Positions 16,970 through 23,900 of a stretch of 42,450 nt of DNA are shown here, in pieces. Position 1 is the first letter of the stretch. Every line of letters starts with the position of its first letter. Source of the stretch: Pontimonas sp. (GTDB lineage Bacteria > Actinomycetota > Actinomycetes > Actinomycetales > Microbacteriaceae); the NCBI GenBank assembly GCA_017857245.1, contig JAFMDO010000006.1, positions 1 to 42,450 of the forward strand. The letters are read 5' to 3'. The translations under genes were made by a program, and so were the position numbers. The notes under the pieces were generated by a model. The model ran no database searches. It was not told the DNA's origin and saw only the letters and a program-made list of their open reading frames with translations.

Positions 16970-17614
16970 TTAGGCCAGCGGATTCCTCGCCTTGACCCAA
17001 TCCAGTTCAGGAATCGCAGCGAGGCCTCCAGGAACGCGTCCCTCTTCAAACCTTTTCACAATGCCCCCGCGCACTTCTTCCTGAACCAGGGCAAAGCAGA
17101 AATGATCCGCCCACTTGCCGTTGATGTGGATATAGCGTCTGCGGAGTCCTTCGTAGCGAAACCCCAGTTTTGCGACCACCCGCAAGGAGGCGGTGTTTTC
17201 GGGACGAATACACACCTCCATGCGGTGGAGACCCTTCTCAAAAAAAAGATAATCCGTGGCCATCGCCACGGCCAGGGTGGTGAAGCCTTGGCCTGCTGCG
17301 GATTCCGTGACCCAGTACCCCAGGTTCGCAGAGGAAAGAGACCCATAGGTGATCTGCGAGACATTCAACTGGCCTACCAATTGACGCTCCGAGATCATTA
17401 CCAGAGGTAATCCGGTGCCATCTTTGGCAGCTTTCAGCAATCCGCGAATACTGGCTTTAGTGTCAGCTGGGGCCAGGCGGATGAGCGGGGTGGTGGCCTC
17501 CCAGGGTTCCAGCCACGCGCGATGCTGGGACAACGCCTTCTCCATATCTTTCGCATCGCGCATTCTTACCCCCCGCAACACAAGGGAGGGGTGGCGAAGG
17601 GTGGGGAGAGACAT
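16970..17614 (-). CDS. RimJ/RimL-type GNAT N-acetyltransferase
   Basis: A 214-residue GNAT. LVGQLNVSQITYGSLSSANLGYWV (about 80-103) and the acetyl-CoA-binding loop AAGQGFTTLAVAMATDYLF (about 107-125), then HRMEVCIRPENTASLRVVAKLGFRYEG, are the RimJ/RimL order. Members acetylate protein N-termini or small amines. It lies directly after galU (three bases after its stop), so the two are co-transcribed; this order is conserved in actinobacteria together with sepX. GTG 17617 is an alternative start. Confidence 0.85.
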   Translation of the reverse strand: MSLPTLRHPSLVLRGVRMRDAKDMEKALSQHRAWLEPWEATTPLIRLAPADTKASIRGLLKAAKDGTGLPLVMISERQLVGQLNVSQITYGSLSSANLGYWVTESAAGQGFTTLAVAMATDYLFFEKGLHRMEVCIRPENTASLRVVAKLGFRYEGLRRRYIHINGKWADHFCFALVQEEVRGGIVKRFEEGRVPGGLAAIPELDWVKARNPLA

Positions 17615-17617
17615 CAC

Positions 17618-18499
17618 TTAGTTCTTGGCGAGGAAGTCTTTCAACCAGCTCAGAAGCTCTGGTCCCAGGTCTTCCCTGCTGGCAGCTACCTGAACGATGG
17701 CCTTGAGGTAATCCAACCGATCCCCCGTGTCATAGCGGCGTCCGGTGAAGACCACCCCAAAAACGCCGCCACCGACCTCTGCTGCAGACATGGCATTGAG
17801 AGCATCGGTCAATTGGATTTCACCACCCGAACCAGGCTCGGTGGCTTCCAGGATGGGGAACACTTCGGGTTGCAAGATGTAGCGACCAATCACAGCCAAG
17901 TTCGAGGGGGCATTCTCGGGTGCGGGTTTTTCCACCAAGCCGGTGACCTTCACCACGTCATCCAGTTCGGTGGCCTCGACGGTGGCGATGCCATACAGGT
18001 GGGTCTGCGAGGGCTCCACTTCCATGAGCGCCACAACACTGGCCTGGCGAAGGTCATGAATCTGGATCATGCGAGAGAGCAACGCATCGCGCTCATCAAT
18101 CAGGTCATCACCGAGCAATACCGCGAACGCCTCGTTGCCAACATGCATCTGGGCGCGGAGAACGGCATGCCCCAAACCCAGGGGGTCCCGTTGGCGCACA
18201 TAGTGCATGTTGGCGAGGTTGGCGGAACGCACCACCTCTTGCAATCGCGCTTGGTCACCTTTGCGCTCGAGTAGCGCTTCAAGCTCGGGAACGTGGTCAA
18301 AATGGTTTTCCAACGCGTTCTTGTTGCGCCCGGTAATCATCAAGACATCGTGAAGCCCAGCATTCACGGCTTCCTCCACCACGTATTGGATGGCTGGTTT
18401 ATCCACCACCGGAAGCATTTCTTTGGGCATGGCCTTCGTGGCAGGCAAAAACCTGGTCCCCAACCCTGCGGCGGGAATCACTGCTTTGGAAATAGGCAC
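17618..18499 (-). CDS. galU: UTP-glucose-1-phosphate uridylyltransferase
   Basis: A 293-residue enzyme with the nucleotidyltransferase signature AAGLGTRFLPATKAMPKEMLP at residues 10-30, EEAVNAGLHDVLMITGRNK, and GLGHAVLRA and LLGDDLI typical of GalU. It makes UDP-glucose from UTP and glucose-1-phosphate for cell-envelope glycans and glycolipids. I set the start at GTG 18499 since a TACGAT -10 box lies exactly six bases before it; the frame extends to TTG 18514. It is divergent from the 5-FCL gene with only 34 bases between start codons and is followed by the acetyltransferase gene. Confidence 0.95.
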   Translation of the reverse strand: MPISKAVIPAAGLGTRFLPATKAMPKEMLPVVDKPAIQYVVEEAVNAGLHDVLMITGRNKNALENHFDHVPELEALLERKGDQARLQEVVRSANLANMHYVRQRDPLGLGHAVLRAQMHVGNEAFAVLLGDDLIDERDALLSRMIQIHDLRQASVVALMEVEPSQTHLYGIATVEATELDDVVKVTGLVEKPAPENAPSNLAVIGRYILQPEVFPILEATEPGSGGEIQLTDALNAMSAAEVGGGVFGVVFTGRRYDTGDRLDYLKAIVQVAASREDLGPELLSWLKDFLAKN

Positions 18500-18505
18500 C
18501 TGTCT

Positions 18506-18511
18506 ATCGTA
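18506..18511 (-). promoter_or_regulatory. -10 box TACGAT, leaderless start of galU
   Basis: TACGAT, AGACAG, then GTG 18499 on the minus strand. The -10 boxes of galU and the divergent gene are only ten bases apart, so the two promoters share one face of DNA. Confidence 0.5.
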
Positions 18512-18521
18512 CAAGGCGCCC

Positions 18522-18527
18522 TACACT
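18522..18527 (+). promoter_or_regulatory. -10 box TACACT, leaderless start of 5-FCL gene
   Basis: TACACT, TGGGGC, then ATG 18534: six-base spacing. Its -35 region would lie inside the galU coding start. Confidence 0.5.
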
Positions 18528-18533
18528 TGGGGC

Positions 18534-19127
18534 ATGACAGAGGGCGCACACCCCAGCAAACGCGCACTGCGCGCCGAACTGCGCGAGCGCCGAAGAATCA
18601 TGACCAGCGTGGAACGGGACACCGCCGCCGAGGGACTTTTTCACCAACTCGTTGCGCTCACCGAACGCTATGACGCCACCCGTATCGCCTGCTACCTCTC
18701 CACCGGGGATGAACCCACCACCAGAAAATTCCTGGAGTGGGCCCATGAACACGCCATCACGGCAATATTGCCGGTGTCAAGAGAAGACGGTCTGATGGAT
18801 TGGATCCCCTTTGCCCCAGGCTCTGAGTCACTGGATTCAGCAGGGATGCCAACACCGGTGGGGGGAACCCTCGGTCCGATCGCACTGGCAGAAGTGGATG
18901 TCATCTTTGTTCCTGCCGCCGGGGTGTCTTCAAGCGGGATGCGTCTGGGCTGGGGGCGCGGGTATTACGACCGAGCATTGGGTTCACTCAATAACGCAGC
19001 TCCCGTGTATGCCGTGGTCTACGACCACGAAGTGTTGGAAGAAGTCCCCAGTGAGCCCCACGACCAACGGGTGGATGCCGTGGTGACCCCCACGCGTAGT
19101 ATGAGATGTGACGGCTCTGCACTCTAA
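18534..19127 (+). CDS. 5-formyltetrahydrofolate cyclo-ligase
   Basis: A 197-residue protein of the 5-FCL family. KRALRAELRERRR at the N-terminus, the central FVPAAGVSSSGMRLGWGRGYYDRAL segment (read in parts, about 125-149) with the nucleotide/substrate GWGRGYYD motif, and DQRVDAVVTP near the end are diagnostic. The enzyme uses ATP to convert 5-formyl-THF to 5,10-methenyl-THF in one-carbon metabolism. The start at ATG 18534 is fixed by the leaderless promoter; longer frames overlap galU. FmdB-like gene follows nine bases after the stop and is probably co-transcribed. Confidence 0.92.
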   Translation: MTEGAHPSKRALRAELRERRRIMTSVERDTAAEGLFHQLVALTERYDATRIACYLSTGDEPTTRKFLEWAHEHAITAILPVSREDGLMDWIPFAPGSESLDSAGMPTPVGGTLGPIALAEVDVIFVPAAGVSSSGMRLGWGRGYYDRALGSLNNAAPVYAVVYDHEVLEEVPSEPHDQRVDAVVTPTRSMRCDGSAL

Positions 19128-19136
19128 AAGGATTTC

Positions 19137-19415
19137 ATGCCCACCTACTCTTACCGCTGCACTTCCTGCGACAACGCTTTTGATATCCAACAAGCCTTCG
19201 CAGATGACTCATTGACGACCTGCACGGAATGCGGCAAATCACTGCGCAAAGTTTTTAGCGCGATCGGGGTCACGTTCCAGGGCTCAGGTTTTTACCAAAC
19301 GGACTCTCGCGCAGAAGCAAAGAAAAGCTCTGCCCCGGCTAAAGAATCAAAAAGTGCGACGCCCGCAAAGAAAGAAACTCCCGCCGCTGCTTCGACCACC
19401 AGCAGCACGACCTAG
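19137..19415 (+). CDS. FmdB-family zinc-ribbon protein
   Basis: A 92-residue protein with the FmdB signature MPTYSYRCTSCDNAFD, and a second knuckle TCTECGKSLRKVFS, forming a CxxC-CxxC zinc ribbon at residues 8-36. The C-terminal half (about 60-92) is a low-complexity Lys/Ala/Ser/Thr tail, likely disordered. FmdB-type proteins are thought to be regulatory; no target is visible. An AAAAGGA site precedes the ATG. The stop overlaps the convergent gene at 19412. Confidence 0.85.
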   Translation: MPTYSYRCTSCDNAFDIQQAFADDSLTTCTECGKSLRKVFSAIGVTFQGSGFYQTDSRAEAKKSSAPAKESKSATPAKKETPAAASTTSSTT

Positions 19416-19564
19416 TAGTGGGGCGGTTTTTCCGCTTTCAGCCGTTCGTCATTAGACGCGTTTTCTTCCCGATCGGGCGGGGGCTCTGCTGATTGGCCAG
19501 CAACGGGCTCCGTTCGGACCCGCCTGGTCCCAATTTTGCGGGTGGGGGGCGGGTCCTCAGCCAC
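19412..19564 (-). CDS. Small disordered protein ending NDERLKAEKPPHY
   Basis: The 50-residue product starts at GTG 19564, overlapping the stop of the large helicase-like gene by eight bases, so it is translationally coupled to it. It is Pro/Arg/Glu-rich and ends in SNDERLKAEKPPHY, an ending I recall from small actinobacterial proteins next to this helicase (NDxRLxxDKPPHW/Y). The role is unknown; coupling suggests it works with, or is regulated with, the upstream protein. The alternative longer frame to 19621 runs inside the helicase gene. Confidence 0.6.
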   Translation of the reverse strand: MAEDPPPTRKIGTRRVRTEPVAGQSAEPPPDREENASNDERLKAEKPPHY

Positions 19565-22500
19565 GAGCCTCAGTCGCGGCCTCGGGGGCAAGGCCCACCA
19601 ACGTGGCAATGCGTCCAGCAACCTGATCGGGGGCCGTGAATAGCTCTAGGGCGTGAGCTTTCACATGGTGCCAACCGGAGGCGGCCAGCGCCAGCGGGCG
19701 CATCCGCAGGGCTTCCCGCACAGGAAGGTGCATCAGGGAGGTGTCCGTATCCAGGGCAATGCAGTAGCCGCCGTAGCGGGCAACCAGAGGAATCTTCCCC
19801 TGGTAATCCAATTCCACAGTCATCCCCCAGGCGCTCAATCGTCTACCAAGGTCCACCAGCAAAGGATCATGGTCACCCCCTGCACGAGGCAGGTGCTTGG
19901 CAGAAGCTTGGGCCAGCACATCTCCCAACGCCCTCGTCGTGGGGCTCAATCTCTCATCGCGCAGATCCTGCTCCGCCACACAGGTCACCACGCGAAGGTG
20001 GCGACGGGCGCTGGTGAAGGCGGCCGCTAGCAACCGTTCGCCGCCAGGCTTCGAAAGAGGTCCCAGATCGCTGAGCACACGACCATGCGGTGTTCTGCCG
20101 TAGCCGAGAGAGAAAATTACGCGGTCCCTGGTGAGTGACGCAGCCTGGTCGAGGGTTGCCACGAGAAAACTTTCGCCCGACTTCGTGTCAAAAAATTCGG
20201 CACTTTCGGGCTTGTTGACTATTGCCTCAGTGAGCGCCTCACGGACGGCGCGGGCATGGAGCGCGCTCGGGGTGAGCACCATCAGAGACTCATTGCTCCG
20301 GGCCATGGCATGGTCCATCACGTGTTGGACCACCACTCGCACCTCTCCTGCGACACCTTCCACGAGCCCGGTCGCTGAATCGGGCATTCCTTGGCCGTCT
20401 TCCACCCACTCCACAGCACACGAAGGGTGCCCCAGAAAGCTCCCTGCCCACGGCAGGGAGCTGAGTCCCTCGCTATAAAAGGTGCTGTTAGCCACACTCG
20501 CAAGGTCATCGCCGGTGCTGCGGTAGCTCGTGGTCAGCGAAAACGAGGGCAGGAGGTCGCGCAGCTGGGCTAACAGGGATTCGTGGTGGAGGGCATCCCG
20601 GTCATCAGGCGGGGTTTCCTCTGCGCTGCGCAGTCCCACGCTAAACGCCGTCGGTGTCTGCGTAACAGGGTCACCCATCGCGACGACCTGGCGGGCTCGG
20701 CGCACAGCGCCGAGTGTTTCTGCCACACGAAGCGAACCGGCGTCCAAGACGATTACCGTGTCAAAACGAACAGTATCGGGAAGTTCGTGGACGTTATACG
20801 GAGTTGCCAACCATACTGGCGATAGTGCTTTCACCAGGTGTGGAGCTTGGTCGCTGAGTTGGGCAGCCGTCGCACCGCGACCCTTCAGCAGGGTCTTCAA
20901 CGCAACAGCCTCTTCCGGCCAATCCATCAACCCCAAGCTCCACCGCTCGGCCAGCTGCCACGACAGTGCTTGAGCGTTACCAGCGCTGTGGGCTTCATCA
21001 ACCAGCCGGAAATCTGCTTCCAAACGCTCCAGAAGCGATTTTTCTGACCCCAGTAACGCCTCTTCCCGCTCCAAAATTTGCTCCAGCGCCCCTCGCCACC
21101 ACGCAAGCTCTAATTCCACACCCACGTCTTCCGCTTCTACGTGTCGGGTGGCAAGATCTTCCACCAACGGGCCAAGATTCCACTGCGCTAACTGATCTGC
21201 TACTTCTTGGCGGCGCTCCAGGCTCTGCAAGATTTCTGATTCCTGCGCCAACGTGGCAAGGAGCTCCACAAGTTCCTCGGTCACCATGTCCGAGAGACGC
21301 CGACCCGGGCCGGTGCGACCGAGGACCCGGTCGAGGTCGCGCAAGTCCTCCTCCACCTGTTGAACCAGAACGTGCGCGTCGTCTAGGCCGGAAGGCACAC
21401 TGGGCTGGTGTCCGGTATCGACGTAGCGATTCCACAGGTCTCGTTGGCCGCCAATTTTCACTAACGATTCGTGCAGATCTCCCACGTGAACGCCCGGGCG
21501 AACGTGTTCCTTAGCAAGAGCCTTCAGGCGCCTGCGTTGCAAACGGGGCATCTCTTTCGAAAGTTCTGAGGATCCCGTGGCAGTGATGAGGTCTTTGACC
21601 GAGCGGTCAAAGACACTGGGTTGAAAACGATCCAGTGAATCTCGAAGGTCGACCAGGAGATGGATGAACACGCCCATCTGGCCAAGCGTTGCGGCTTCGG
21701 GGAGGGGAGTTTCGGACAGGATGGGAGCAATTTTGTCCATCAGACGCGGCACACTCTCGCTCGCGAGGCGCTGGGCTCGCTCGTGGGATTTCCTGGCATC
21801 CTCTAAGTTTCGAAAGTCCACGCCATACCAGGGAGTGTCCCCTGGCCCATATTTGAATTCACCCAGCGTTGCTGCCCGAGCCAACATTTCGGCGGCCTGC
21901 CCTCGCCCTGGTGCCAGCGCGACGAGCGCATCGCGCTCCAATCGCGCGGTGGTCTCGGGAGGTTTCTCTTTCAGCGACAGCGTGCCAAGGGTATGGAAGC
22001 ATTCCATCGCACTCACCCCAAGGTCCTGGTCTTTCACCGCGAGCGCTTCGCGGTAGCGAAGAATGACGGTGCGCAAACGCGTCCAGGCTGAGTCAACATC
22101 CCCGGTGGTGGGCTTTTTTGTTTTCTCGCTCCTCGTGAGCGCCTCGATCAGATCTTTCCCAGGGTTGTTGACCCGGGTGACTAAGCCTTTGAGCCCGGCG
22201 CGGGAGAGGCGATTCAACAAATCGTTGGTTTTTTCTGCGCCAGCGCTGACCACGAGGGTTCTTTTATTGGCCGAGGCAAGCGCACCGAGTGCGCCAGCGA
22301 TGGTCTGAATTCCCCCCACTCCGGGTGCCGAGCGAATGGTGAGGGAGTTTCCTGCCAGCACATTGGCCACAATCGCGTCCTGAGCGCTATCCAGGTCGAC
22401 CACTCCGCGGTCGCTCGCTGCGGAGCGAGAATCGGGGTGGGTGATTTCCACGGGATTGCGCGCATCGCGCAATTGCTGGATGGCATGGGTGTTGCCGCCC

Positions 22501-23279
22501 AGGGCGTCCAGAATCGGGTGCTGCAAATTCTGTGCATCGTCGAGCATGGCCTGGTTAAGGTCCGTGAAGCTTGAAATCAGGAGCCTGGCGGAGACAGCGA
22601 CATCACCGCGGTGGGCGGTGAGATCGCGCAAGCGATCCAGGGCGGGGTTGGGTTTGAATGCTCCACCATCATCGGTCAGCGCCACAAAGGCTTCAGCGTC
22701 CAGGGTCACCTGAAGGTGTTCGGCAAAGGCGCGCTGCAACCCGGGGTTAAGCTCCACGCGGGATCGACCCAGCGTGATTTCACTATCCCCACCTTTCCGA
22801 CGCAGGCTCACCTCGCGCAAAAGCAGCGGTCCGCAGTAGTCGACGTTGTCGTGTTTCCACTCCACTAAACCAATGCCTAGCGCCAGGGTCGCAAGGCCTC
22901 GAGTAGTTGCGAGCTCCTGGTCATGATCGATCAAACGCAACGCTGCTGTGGTCGCGGGACGCCTCGCGACATCGTCTCTGATCAAGTTGGCTAACAAGGT
23001 GGGAGATCCGGCGAGGAAGCGTGCTAATCCACCCGGGTGGCCGCGGGAAATATCTATTCTGTTTTCGCCCCGGTCCTGGAAGTGAATCAGGGGGCTTGCG
23101 CCACCGAGCGCGGCCAGACTTTCCCACCAGCCCGTCCACGCTTGTGCCGCCTCGTTCACGGGGGTGGCCCCGGCGTCATTGACGCTAACCTGGTGCGCCA
23201 AATCACTCGACCACCACGGGGTGGTATCGAGATTTTCCCCAAGGTTCGTGGGGGCATCATAATTATCGGCACGCCACAC
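19557..23279 (-). CDS. DUF4011-type superfamily I helicase/REase-like protein with eroded catalytic motifs
   Basis: A 1240-residue protein laid out like actinobacterial helicases with an N-terminal DUF4011-like region (about 40-290), an SF1 helicase region (about 295-1120) and a C-terminal restriction-endonuclease fold (REase_MTES_1575-like, about 1145-1240). The expected catalytic residues are altered: Walker A reads APGVGG (about 318-323, no Lys), motif II reads LDAG with Asp846-Ala847 instead of DE, motif III reads GDPVTQTP, the QGDERD motif before RDRVIFSLGYG is missing, and TRAR is TSARR. The nuclease strand reads IALDTD. A long coiled-coil middle (about 560-800) is present. Start GTG 23279 is fixed by a leaderless promoter. 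It may be a structural or regulatory pseudo-enzyme. No in-frame stop breaks the gene. Confidence 0.75.
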   Translation of the reverse strand: MWRADNYDAPTNLGENLDTTPWWSSDLAHQVSVNDAGATPVNEAAQAWTGWWESLAALGGASPLIHFQDRGENRIDISRGHPGGLARFLAGSPTLLANLIRDDVARRPATTAALRLIDHDQELATTRGLATLALGIGLVEWKHDNVDYCGPLLLREVSLRRKGGDSEITLGRSRVELNPGLQRAFAEHLQVTLDAEAFVALTDDGGAFKPNPALDRLRDLTAHRGDVAVSARLLISSFTDLNQAMLDDAQNLQHPILDALGGNTHAIQQLRDARNPVEITHPDSRSAASDRGVVDLDSAQDAIVANVLAGNSLTIRSAPGVGGIQTIAGALGALASANKRTLVVSAGAEKTNDLLNRLSRAGLKGLVTRVNNPGKDLIEALTRSEKTKKPTTGDVDSAWTRLRTVILRYREALAVKDQDLGVSAMECFHTLGTLSLKEKPPETTARLERDALVALAPGRGQAAEMLARAATLGEFKYGPGDTPWYGVDFRNLEDARKSHERAQRLASESVPRLMDKIAPILSETPLPEAATLGQMGVFIHLLVDLRDSLDRFQPSVFDRSVKDLITATGSSELSKEMPRLQRRRLKALAKEHVRPGVHVGDLHESLVKIGGQRDLWNRYVDTGHQPSVPSGLDDAHVLVQQVEEDLRDLDRVLGRTGPGRRLSDMVTEELVELLATLAQESEILQSLERRQEVADQLAQWNLGPLVEDLATRHVEAEDVGVELELAWWRGALEQILEREEALLGSEKSLLERLEADFRLVDEAHSAGNAQALSWQLAERWSLGLMDWPEEAVALKTLLKGRGATAAQLSDQAPHLVKALSPVWLATPYNVHELPDTVRFDTVIVLDAGSLRVAETLGAVRRARQVVAMGDPVTQTPTAFSVGLRSAEETPPDDRDALHHESLLAQLRDLLPSFSLTTSYRSTGDDLASVANSTFYSEGLSSLPWAGSFLGHPSCAVEWVEDGQGMPDSATGLVEGVAGEVRVVVQHVMDHAMARSNESLMVLTPSALHARAVREALTEAIVNKPESAEFFDTKSGESFLVATLDQAASLTRDRVIFSLGYGRTPHGRVLSDLGPLSKPGGERLLAAAFTSARRHLRVVTCVAEQDLRDERLSPTTRALGDVLAQASAKHLPRAGGDHDPLLVDLGRRLSAWGMTVELDYQGKIPLVARYGGYCIALDTDTSLMHLPVREALRMRPLALAASGWHHVKAHALELFTAPDQVAGRIATLVGLAPEAATEARG

Positions 23280-23285
23280 TCTCCT

Positions 23286-23307
23286 AACGTAGGGCGCAGG
23301 GCCCTAC
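23286..23307 (-). promoter_or_regulatory. -10 box TACGTT of the helicase-like gene with overlapping inverted repeat
   Basis: TACGTT (23286-23291) is followed by AGGAGA and GTG 23279: six-base spacing. GTAGGGC (23289-23295) and GCCCTAC (23301-23307) form a 7-bp dyad with a five-base loop that overlaps the -10 box, as an operator would. Confidence 0.45.
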
Positions 23308-23346
23308 AGGGCACCTATCCCACGCCGTTACAGGGCTTGGGCCGAT

Positions 23347-23613
23347 TTAGACCACGCGGGCAGCATTGGTCCAGACCTGCGCAAAGAACGGATTTTCGCC
23401 GGCCCACTCATCGCAATTCCACGGTGGTGCTTGGCATTCACGGCACCAGTGCTCGGCCGGCACTATCAGATACGGTGATGCGTCAGAGGGGTGACTCCTG
23501 GCACACGACCAGTGAAGCGGTATGTAAGCCTCCCCCACCTTCACCGTGTCCCTCGCCAGTGTTCGGCCACGAAACTCAGCCCCTGGTAGTGCCTGCTCCA
23601 GGCAGTGTGTCAT
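23347..23613 (-). CDS. Small Cys-rich protein of unknown function
   Basis: An 88-residue ORF with four of its Cys in the second half: PLHWSCARSHP, then HWCRECQAPPWNCDEWAG. The CxxC plus flanking Cys and His could hold a metal. I do not recognise a family. The codon use is less G+C-rich at third positions than the neighbours, and it sits between the helicase-like gene and an A+T-rich stretch next to a tRNA, so acquired DNA is possible. The 23614-23828 gap holds that A+T-rich stretch (with A7 and A6 runs near 23690-23710) and no supported gene. Confidence 0.4.
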   Translation of the reverse strand: MTHCLEQALPGAEFRGRTLARDTVKVGEAYIPLHWSCARSHPSDASPYLIVPAEHWCRECQAPPWNCDEWAGENPFFAQVWTNAARVV

Positions 23614-23828
23614 CACAGTCGCGGCAGGGCGAGACAGTCCATGGACCTTCTTTATTAGCTTGGCTGAATTATTTCAATGGTGAGCCCCAAAAAACCCTGC
23701 AAAAAAAGTGGTTGCCGACCATGAGGTACAAAAGTTATTTGAGAACGCGCCCCCTAGCTTGACCGCACGCTGGGAGAAGCAGGGCCCAGAAACCACTGGC
23801 CCCACGAGCAGGGCTGGTGGGGGGAAAG

Positions 23829-23900
23829 TGCCCCTGGAGGGAGTCGAACCCCCAACCCTTTCCTTAGGACGGAACTGCTCTTCCATTGAGCTACAGAGGC
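23829..23900 (-). tRNA. tRNA-Arg(CCT)
   Basis: Read on the minus strand: acceptor arms GCCTCTG and CAGGGGC pair over seven bases (one G-T), D stem GCTC/GAGC, anticodon loop GTCCTAA with anticodon CCT at 23868-23866, and a T arm GGGGG-TTCGACT-CCCTC. The discriminator is A at 23829 and CCA is not encoded. It reads AGG codons. Confidence 0.9.

Follow-up and report, generated by a model that had tools for sequence, protein, structure and literature searches.

The window analysed here, a stretch of 42,450 nucleotides from Pontimonas sp. (GenBank assembly GCA_017857245.1, contig JAFMDO010000006.1, positions 1 to 42,450), is one of the contigs of a 1.28 Mb genome that is 97.7% complete. On its minus strand, at 19557–23279, lies a gene for a helicase-like protein of 1240 amino acids (DUF4011, an Upf1-like superfamily 1 (SF1) core and an MTES_1575-like C-terminal domain), directly followed by a small open reading frame (ORF); these two genes are the subject of this work. 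The large gene starts with GTG at 23279, with an AGGAG sequence very close to the start, and stops at 19557–19559. The 1240-codon frame reported in a preliminary description contains no internal stop, and its strand is added here. The residues named in that description are all present: APGVGG (318–323), LDAG (845–848), YRSTGDD, FSLGYGRTPHGR, TSARR (1089–1093) and IALDTD (1174–1179). A single match to the protein was found in its genome, so it is the only such gene there, and its closest named relatives (66–73% identity) come from metagenome-assembled genomes labelled Pontimonas sp., Microbacteriaceae or Actinomycetota.

From the N-terminus, a DUF4011-like part (residues 1–295, positions 22395–23279; Pfam DUF4011 match at residues 111–179) is followed by a Walker A loop that reads APGVGGIQ without the lysine (residues 318–325, positions 22305–22328) and by an altered motif II, LDAG (positions 20736–20747), where intact relatives have DEAS. 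Motif VI reads TSARR (positions 20001–20015), with TRARR in most relatives, and a degenerate MTES_1575-like nuclease part (residues 1138–1229, positions 19593–19868) was delimited by alignment to the Pfam MTES_1575 matches of relatives. The Walker A loop and motif VI were assessed in the family alignment, the former also by the ratio of non-synonymous to synonymous substitution rates (dN/dS), and the register of motif II was taken from an ungapped FD..GD stretch. The small ORF (50 codons' worth of protein, GTG start, positions 19412–19564, same strand) has its start overlapping the last codons and stop of the large gene, and it ends in KPPHY (positions 19415–19429), a form of the PPH[W/Y] tail that is conserved among the family loci compared.

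Full-length alignment of the window protein with intact relatives establishes homology to DUF4011 helicase-nucleases of the PDC-S37 type; DUF4011, AAA_11, AAA_12 and MTES_1575 are all found by Pfam in two of these relatives, L120 and L151. In profile searches it is matched best by PADLOC PDC-S37 (7.9e-80, over two stretches, the best covering residues 628–1229), NCBIfam antiphage_ProA (2.6e-65, 220.8 bits) and Hhe (NCBIfam/PADLOC). The NCBIfam cut-offs of the ProA and Hhe equivalogs are missed by a wide margin (220.8 versus 1500 bits and 105.1 versus 2000 bits, respectively), and the Pfam DUF4011 match, at 21.6 bits, falls just short of its 22.2 cut-off. MTES_1575 was not reported for the window protein in the Pfam scan, although relatives exceed the cut-off. 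Matches by phmmer to glutamate dehydrogenase chains (3 sequences, E 0.002–0.033) were taken as chance.

An AlphaFold2 model covering residues 41–1240, built from 42 sequences, has a mean predicted local distance difference test score (pLDDT) of 76 and a predicted template modelling score (pTM) of 0.64. Its best match among solved folds is Ighmbp2 (Z 19.1, root-mean-square deviation 4.9 over 495 aligned residues), followed by Aquarius (Z 18.2), Dna2 (18.1), Sen1 (17.2) and Upf1 (16.6), with matches within Z 1 of each other regarded as tied. In the model, two RecA-like lobes in an Upf1-like arrangement (the SF1B fold) seem to be kept even though the ATPase residues are lost. Upf1-like SF1B helicases are ATP-driven. 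The window protein shares their predicted fold (Z 16.6–19.1), but it is only ~13–17% identical to them and has neither the Walker A Lys nor the Walker B Asp.

Catalytic residues were assigned from the SF1 helicase and PD-(D/E)XK-type nuclease motifs, read against the intact relatives; in this alignment the window protein does not have intact Walker A, Walker B and nuclease residues. Motif counts refer to 95 Microbacteriaceae rows, of which 93–95 are covered depending on the position. The Walker A Lys (position 323) is present in 0/94 homologues, as the preliminary description had observed for this one protein; Gly (70), Ala (16), Ser (7) or Thr (1) stands in its place, with one gap. Elsewhere in the loop, G320, G322 and Q325 are each found in 94/94. 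For motif II, described earlier as DAG instead of DE, the alteration is real but the register had to be corrected: D-E-A-S aligns without gaps on L845-D846-A847-G848, so that a hydrophobic residue has replaced the first Asp, and Asp the Glu. The motif reads hydrophobic-D-A-G/A in Microbacteriaceae, and the replacement D846 is found in all 95 rows. The altered motifs thus form a conserved clade, as had been proposed for testing.

The claim that every catalytic motif is altered goes too far. Motif III Gly-Asp (869–870) and the motif IV Arg R920 are kept in 95/95, as are Arg 1051 (93/94), Asp 1052 (94/94) and R1092, the second Arg of motif VI (93/93 covered rows). The change of TRAR to TSARR, correctly read in the window protein, is a subclade feature in the sequences compared: of 93 covered rows, 6 have Ser at position 1090 and 87 have Arg. 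Similarly, in the nuclease part, where the strand had been read as IALDTD, the Asp of the intact 'IDL' is replaced by Pro1164, but the E/D-x-D element is partly kept (position 1177: Glu 71, Asp 22 of 93).

These retained residues bear on whether the protein could be an active enzyme that uses other residues (Asp 846, Gln 325, Arg 920, Arg 1092) to bind or hydrolyse ATP, as some pseudokinases do. The loop glycines and these four residues are almost invariant and the altered motifs are strongly constrained, and in one family outside the order Actinomycetales (f34) the Walker A Lys is replaced by Arg in 8/8 sequences [L171–L181]. On the other hand, loss of the Walker A Lys coincides with that of the Walker B Asp position, and the loops of other families have been replaced by unrelated residues (e.g., DAPVGAD and DEQTGRHSADD). 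We consider an enzyme of this kind an unlikely explanation.

Selection on the large gene was assessed by dN/dS. Pairs were restricted to dS 0.05–0.6 and dN <0.08, which gave 149 close pairs with a median of 0.094; from these, 17 disjoint close Microbacteriaceae pairs were used, including one from the genus group of the window. A run that included frame extensions upstream of the starts was not used, nor was a set of 2370 pairs (median 0.417, maximum 0.833), which includes distant, high-GC pairs with synonymous sites judged to be saturated. Across the 17 pairs, dN/dS of the large gene ranges from 0.009 to 0.183. When pooled by region, it is lowest in the Walker A loop (residues 314–327; 0.013, with 2 non-synonymous changes), followed by motif II (residues 838–850; 0.021, with 3 non-synonymous changes), motifs V–VI (0.024), the nuclease part (0.031) and the second RecA lobe (0.036). 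Values are higher in the two parts of the first RecA lobe (0.045 and 0.111), the DUF4011 part (0.079) and the helical insert (0.089). Such strong constraint at dead sites would fit re-use of the pocket. Combining a predicted helicase fold, lost motifs and a coding sequence under purifying selection, the protein appears to be a pseudohelicase.

A decaying gene, caught before frameshifts accumulate, would also have lost its catalytic motifs, and a dN/dS near 1 with frameshifts in close relatives had been named as its signature. One frame break was found: in a same-genus copy (G006:C274:5479-9184, L012) a frame change near residue 1060 divides the gene; the assembly is 74% complete and consists of 290 contigs. 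The frame is open in the other full-length family copies seen, the gene persists in reduced genomes, and the dead motif sites are among the most constrained stretches, which argues against decay. Given these values, we regard it as ruled out for practical purposes.

The helicase homologue is found in 37/40 relatives and in 25/25 of the near-complete ones; the three relatives without a match are same-genus assemblies that are 59–86% complete. More widely, homologues are detected in 191/198 genomes of the order, some only as weak or partial matches, and in 85/197 genomes of the class, where weak or partial matches are common. No match was obtained in seven order genomes, which belong to two of the sampled families (coded f1–f38; loci and genomes are coded L and G, respectively), six to f10 and one to f8. 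At least one of these misses stems from the first-look search, because G033 (f10) was matched in a single-sequence search. In other families, the matches G084:C4:137853-140531 and G228:C68:29664-33314 each cross one in-frame stop (TAG and TGA, respectively), which could reflect a broken copy or an effect of the start region.

A wider motif set of 114 sequences from 19 families, 15 of them in the order, was used to follow the Walker A Lys. Several families are represented by 1–4 sequences (f2, f4, f24, f32 and f38 by one), and f10, f11 and f18 lie outside the motif sampling. Rows L031–L044 were dropped because they were treated as the same genes as L001–L016, as were L111, L119 and L128 (repeats of L028, L025 and L024). 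Lys is present in only 11/114 sequences (f5 2/2, f17 7/10, f32 1/1, f38 1/1); L190, an f17 sequence outside this set, also has it, which brings f17 to 8/11. It is absent from every sampled member of f1, f2, f3, f4, f6, f7, f8, f9, f12, f14, f15, f16, f19, f24 and f34. Thus 13 of the 15 order families have no Lys in any sampled member; in the remaining two it is retained by 2/2 and 8/11 sequences. The alteration first described as a trait of a single gene is real, but it belongs to the family and to most of the order.

The number of losses was estimated from trees that took every fifth of L045–L110 and left out L006, L010, L011, L012, L016 and L026, all of them partial except L006; no Lys was seen in L006, L010, L011, L016 and L026 where the Walker A region is covered. 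The FastTree topology implies 3 losses, whichever Lys-bearing leaf is taken as root, and an unfinished iqtree topology without computed supports implies 4. Because the deep FastTree supports are weak (0.11–0.66), we put the number at about three or more only. On these alignments, the motor appears to have been lost in several lineages and not in the window gene alone.

The second component of the locus is the small ORF, which runs from 19564 to 19412 and begins inside the last codons of the large gene. All 17 family loci inspected, the window's own included, have a downstream frame whose C-terminus is KPPHY or KPPHW, followed by no more than one residue. The association was quantified in the 161 loci with at least 300 bp downstream as a same-strand ORF ending PPH[W/Y/F] within 600 bp. 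Such an ORF is adjacent in 138/161 loci, and in another 7/161 the large protein itself ends in PPH[W/Y/F] (L121, L123, L143, L145, L149, L150 and L152, from f6, f14, f16 and f17), so that the partner is adjacent or fused in 145/161. Among controls, no such ORF was found on the opposite strand downstream (0/161) or on either strand of the upstream side (0/160). An eighth helicase–PPHW fusion, L190, has intact motifs. The eight fusions have long linkers, often acidic and of low complexity, and the helicase motifs are intact in L150, L152 and L190.

The tail, compared in 140 distinct sequences, mostly reads [N/D]-D-[D/E]-R-L-x-x-[D/E]-[K/R/V]-P-P-H-[W/Y], where invariance of PPH is by construction, as it was the search anchor; zero or one residue follows it in 125/145. 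The 14–30 codons ahead of the tail show coding-like dN/dS (0.14–0.21, 18 gap-free pairs), and the partner is judged from this sequence evidence to be a genuine protein-coding gene. The protein is of low complexity, and no family for it was found in Pfam (seven small proteins searched) or NCBIfam (six). No description of it was found in the part of the literature that was searched. The coupled small partner proposed in the preliminary description is thus real and order-wide, and the accompanying interpretation, selection for a non-enzymatic function together with a small partner, is supported by the sequence comparisons.

The small gene also occurs beyond the helicase. A 43-position profile searched against the 197 class genomes matched 118 at E <= 1e-3 (a count of listed rows) and 168 at a lax E <= 1, and many of the positive genomes have no full-length helicase match. 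At 20/20 loci fetched around lone matches there is an ORF ending PPH[W/Y/H] plus a short tail. Outside the order, SAF, FmdB-type or MscL genes were identified with Pfam within 4 kb of representative lone PPHW loci in 8/16 families and were not seen in the other 8/16. Twenty neighbour proteins gave SAF/RcpC, FmdB, MscL, MspA, MoCF and FUR matches, the other 12 being without a family, and no function follows from these neighbours. Variant endings (PPHHL, PPHHGKD, PPHHG and PPHYE) were seen among L202 (f33), L204 and L219 (f38), and L215 and L217 (f21); most of these families have no full-length helicase match. The simplest reading is that the small gene is older and that the helicase probably became its neighbour later at this locus.

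This wider occurrence could mean that the two genes are operon neighbours only, the PPHW protein having a separate function and merely sharing transcription with the large gene. The lone loci, with their recurring SAF, FmdB or MscL genes, are compatible with this, as is f34, where the small gene lies up to 4.4 kb away. Same-strand adjacency and repeated fusion are less readily explained in this way, and from family to family the remaining neighbours are far more variable. We therefore consider mere co-transcription doubtful.

Downstream of the pair lie genes with housekeeping assignments. The stop codons of the small ORF and of a convergent FmdB-type zinc ribbon gene (19137–19415, plus strand; Pfam Zn_ribbon_8, 1.8e-14) overlap at 19412–19415 with zero spacer. 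Next come a 5-formyltetrahydrofolate cyclo-ligase (5-FCL) gene (18390–19127, plus strand; PF01812, 3.4e-34), a galU-like nucleotidyl transferase gene (17618–18514, minus strand; PF00483, 2.3e-29) and a GNAT acetyltransferase gene (16970–17617, minus strand; PF13302, 1.9e-19). The start of the galU-like gene is probably downstream of the listed TTG because of its overlap with the 5-FCL gene. Upstream, about 550 bp with no assigned feature (23280–23828) separate the pseudohelicase gene from a tRNA-Arg(CCT) gene (23828–23900, minus strand; ARAGORN). The FmdB zinc ribbon is probably of the type to which Ruc (Rv0991c) belongs, and nothing is drawn from this. The M. tuberculosis zinc-ribbon chaperone Ruc / Rv0991c, as presented in passages of PMC7448276, is comparable to the FmdB-type neighbour only and not to the pseudohelicase.

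Neighbours were clustered by single linkage from flanks of 5–10 kb or less, the galU/GNAT cluster being mixed. At least one of five clusters (SAF, galU/GNAT, MscL, FmdB, 5-FCL) is found downstream in 112/145 loci (f1 66/73, f3 7/7, f6 7/7, f9 5/5, f17 9/10, f34 5/8, f15 1/4), so the pair is often, though not always, at an mscL-SAF-FmdB-5FCL-galU locus. The Actinomyces oris locus runs 'DNA helicase', a 'hypothetical protein' ending DVPPHWG, mscL, SAF, 5-FCL, glp and GNAT, and this helicase too is without the Walker A Lys. Plasmid matches are rare and distant: 306/72,556 records, all at <60% identity, and just one spans 80% or more of the query, an Actinomyces oris record of 415 kb with the same locus. 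Among 50,697 phage records, one matches, over 24% of the query. A mobile-element gene was rejected on these grounds.

The profile matches described above raise the question of whether this is a phage-defence protein, a PDC-S37/ProA/Hhe relative that would act as sensor, guard or decoy, the small protein being its regulator or effector. We know of no defence test of a window-type protein. According to passages of PMC10250203, a core defence hotspot of P. aeruginosa has a DUF4011 gene at its border. The window protein is homologous to PDC-S37, antiphage_ProA and Hhe over the helicase and C-terminal parts, but differs from them in its lost motif residues, sub-cut-off scores, core-gene status and PPHW partner. 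Unlike genes of patchy defence islands, it is near-universal in the order and often sits beside housekeeping genes; close plasmid or phage matches are rare, and the helicase and nuclease sites have been lost. These observations weaken the defence explanation, which we consider unlikely.

The strict maintenance of a motor-less helicase and a PPHW protein across most sampled families of the order points to a core function that would need the shape of a helicase and not its motor. The explanation we favour, with moderate confidence, is that the pseudohelicase is a non-catalytic core protein working with the small PPHW partner, its exact role being less certain. The likeliest role is that of a scaffold, probably one that binds nucleic acid. 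As part of the same explanation, and held jointly with it at that strength, it would be a mostly vertically inherited core gene descended from an active DUF4011–SF1B helicase–nuclease, an ancestor that may have become joined to the small PPHW gene in Actinomycetales.

Several observations weigh against this explanation. The retained Arg 1092, R920 and Gly-Asp 869–870 leave room for residual nucleotide binding, and the frame break in G006 is either real or an assembly error. None of the five neighbour clusters is seen in f2, f8, f12, f19, f24, f32 and f38 within the available flanks. The partner is present in 6/7 loci of f3 and 5/6 of f12, but it is not beside the gene in f19 (0/4) or in f24, f32 and f38 (0/1 each), and in f34 it is adjacent in 1/8, the other seven lying 0.7–4.4 kb away on the same strand with other genes between. 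It also accompanies intact-motif relatives (f5, f17) and is therefore not specific to the dead form; the partnership either preceded the loss of the motor or is independent of it. Within the order, f19 (L159–L162) is the sole family with a pseudohelicase but no adjoining PPH[W/Y/F] ORF, in 4/4 sampled genomes.

If the pseudohelicase and its partner do work together, the dead nucleotide pocket and the two-lobed body might now act as a static clamp on nucleic acid or a nucleic acid–protein complex, one that would not translocate along it. The PPHW tail could serve as a docking peptide that ties this body to some component shared by the class. Genomes with no full-length helicase also have related tails, so the receptor is unlikely to be just the helicase and likelier to be a general actinobacterial component; RNA polymerase, the ribosome, the replisome or another assembly would be candidates. 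More tentatively, and at odds we would put below even, the pair may form a two-part system in which a class-wide PPHW docking peptide marks a cellular component and an ATP-independent Upf1-like body, joined to it in Actinomycetales, holds nucleic acid or nucleic acid–protein complexes there, the motor having been lost in several lineages and the job kept.

Helicase folds without a motor have precedents. PriA is an unrelated SF2 replication-restart protein. In PMC4504706, PriA of Deinococcus radiodurans is described as having no ATPase and yet binding DNA and DnaB; as here, a helicase fold without ATPase motifs is conserved in a lineage. Its DNA and protein binding were shown by experiment, whereas the partnership proposed here is based on linkage and fusion, and the PPHW partner and a loss that spans an order, in an SF1 helicase-nuclease, are seen only here. 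The pseudohelicase Utp25 (PMC9539457) likewise resembles the proposed role as a helicase-like structural component, although it is a eukaryotic ribosome biogenesis protein of another family. Passages of PMC8467076 contain nothing on the pseudohelicase gene.

A 1240-residue gene that is kept in a 1.28 Mb genome and across the order, under strong selection and with its enzyme residues lost in several lineages, should carry an important job. Annotation as 'DNA helicase' beside 'hypothetical protein', as in one Actinomyces oris record, obscures the conservation of the partner as well as the loss of the motor, and profile matches to PDC-S37, ProA or Hhe may mark core pseudoenzymes and not anti-phage systems. 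The PPH[W/Y] tail offers a concrete bait for finding the receptor. If true, the proposed arrangement would be a previously undescribed core two-part system of actinobacteria.

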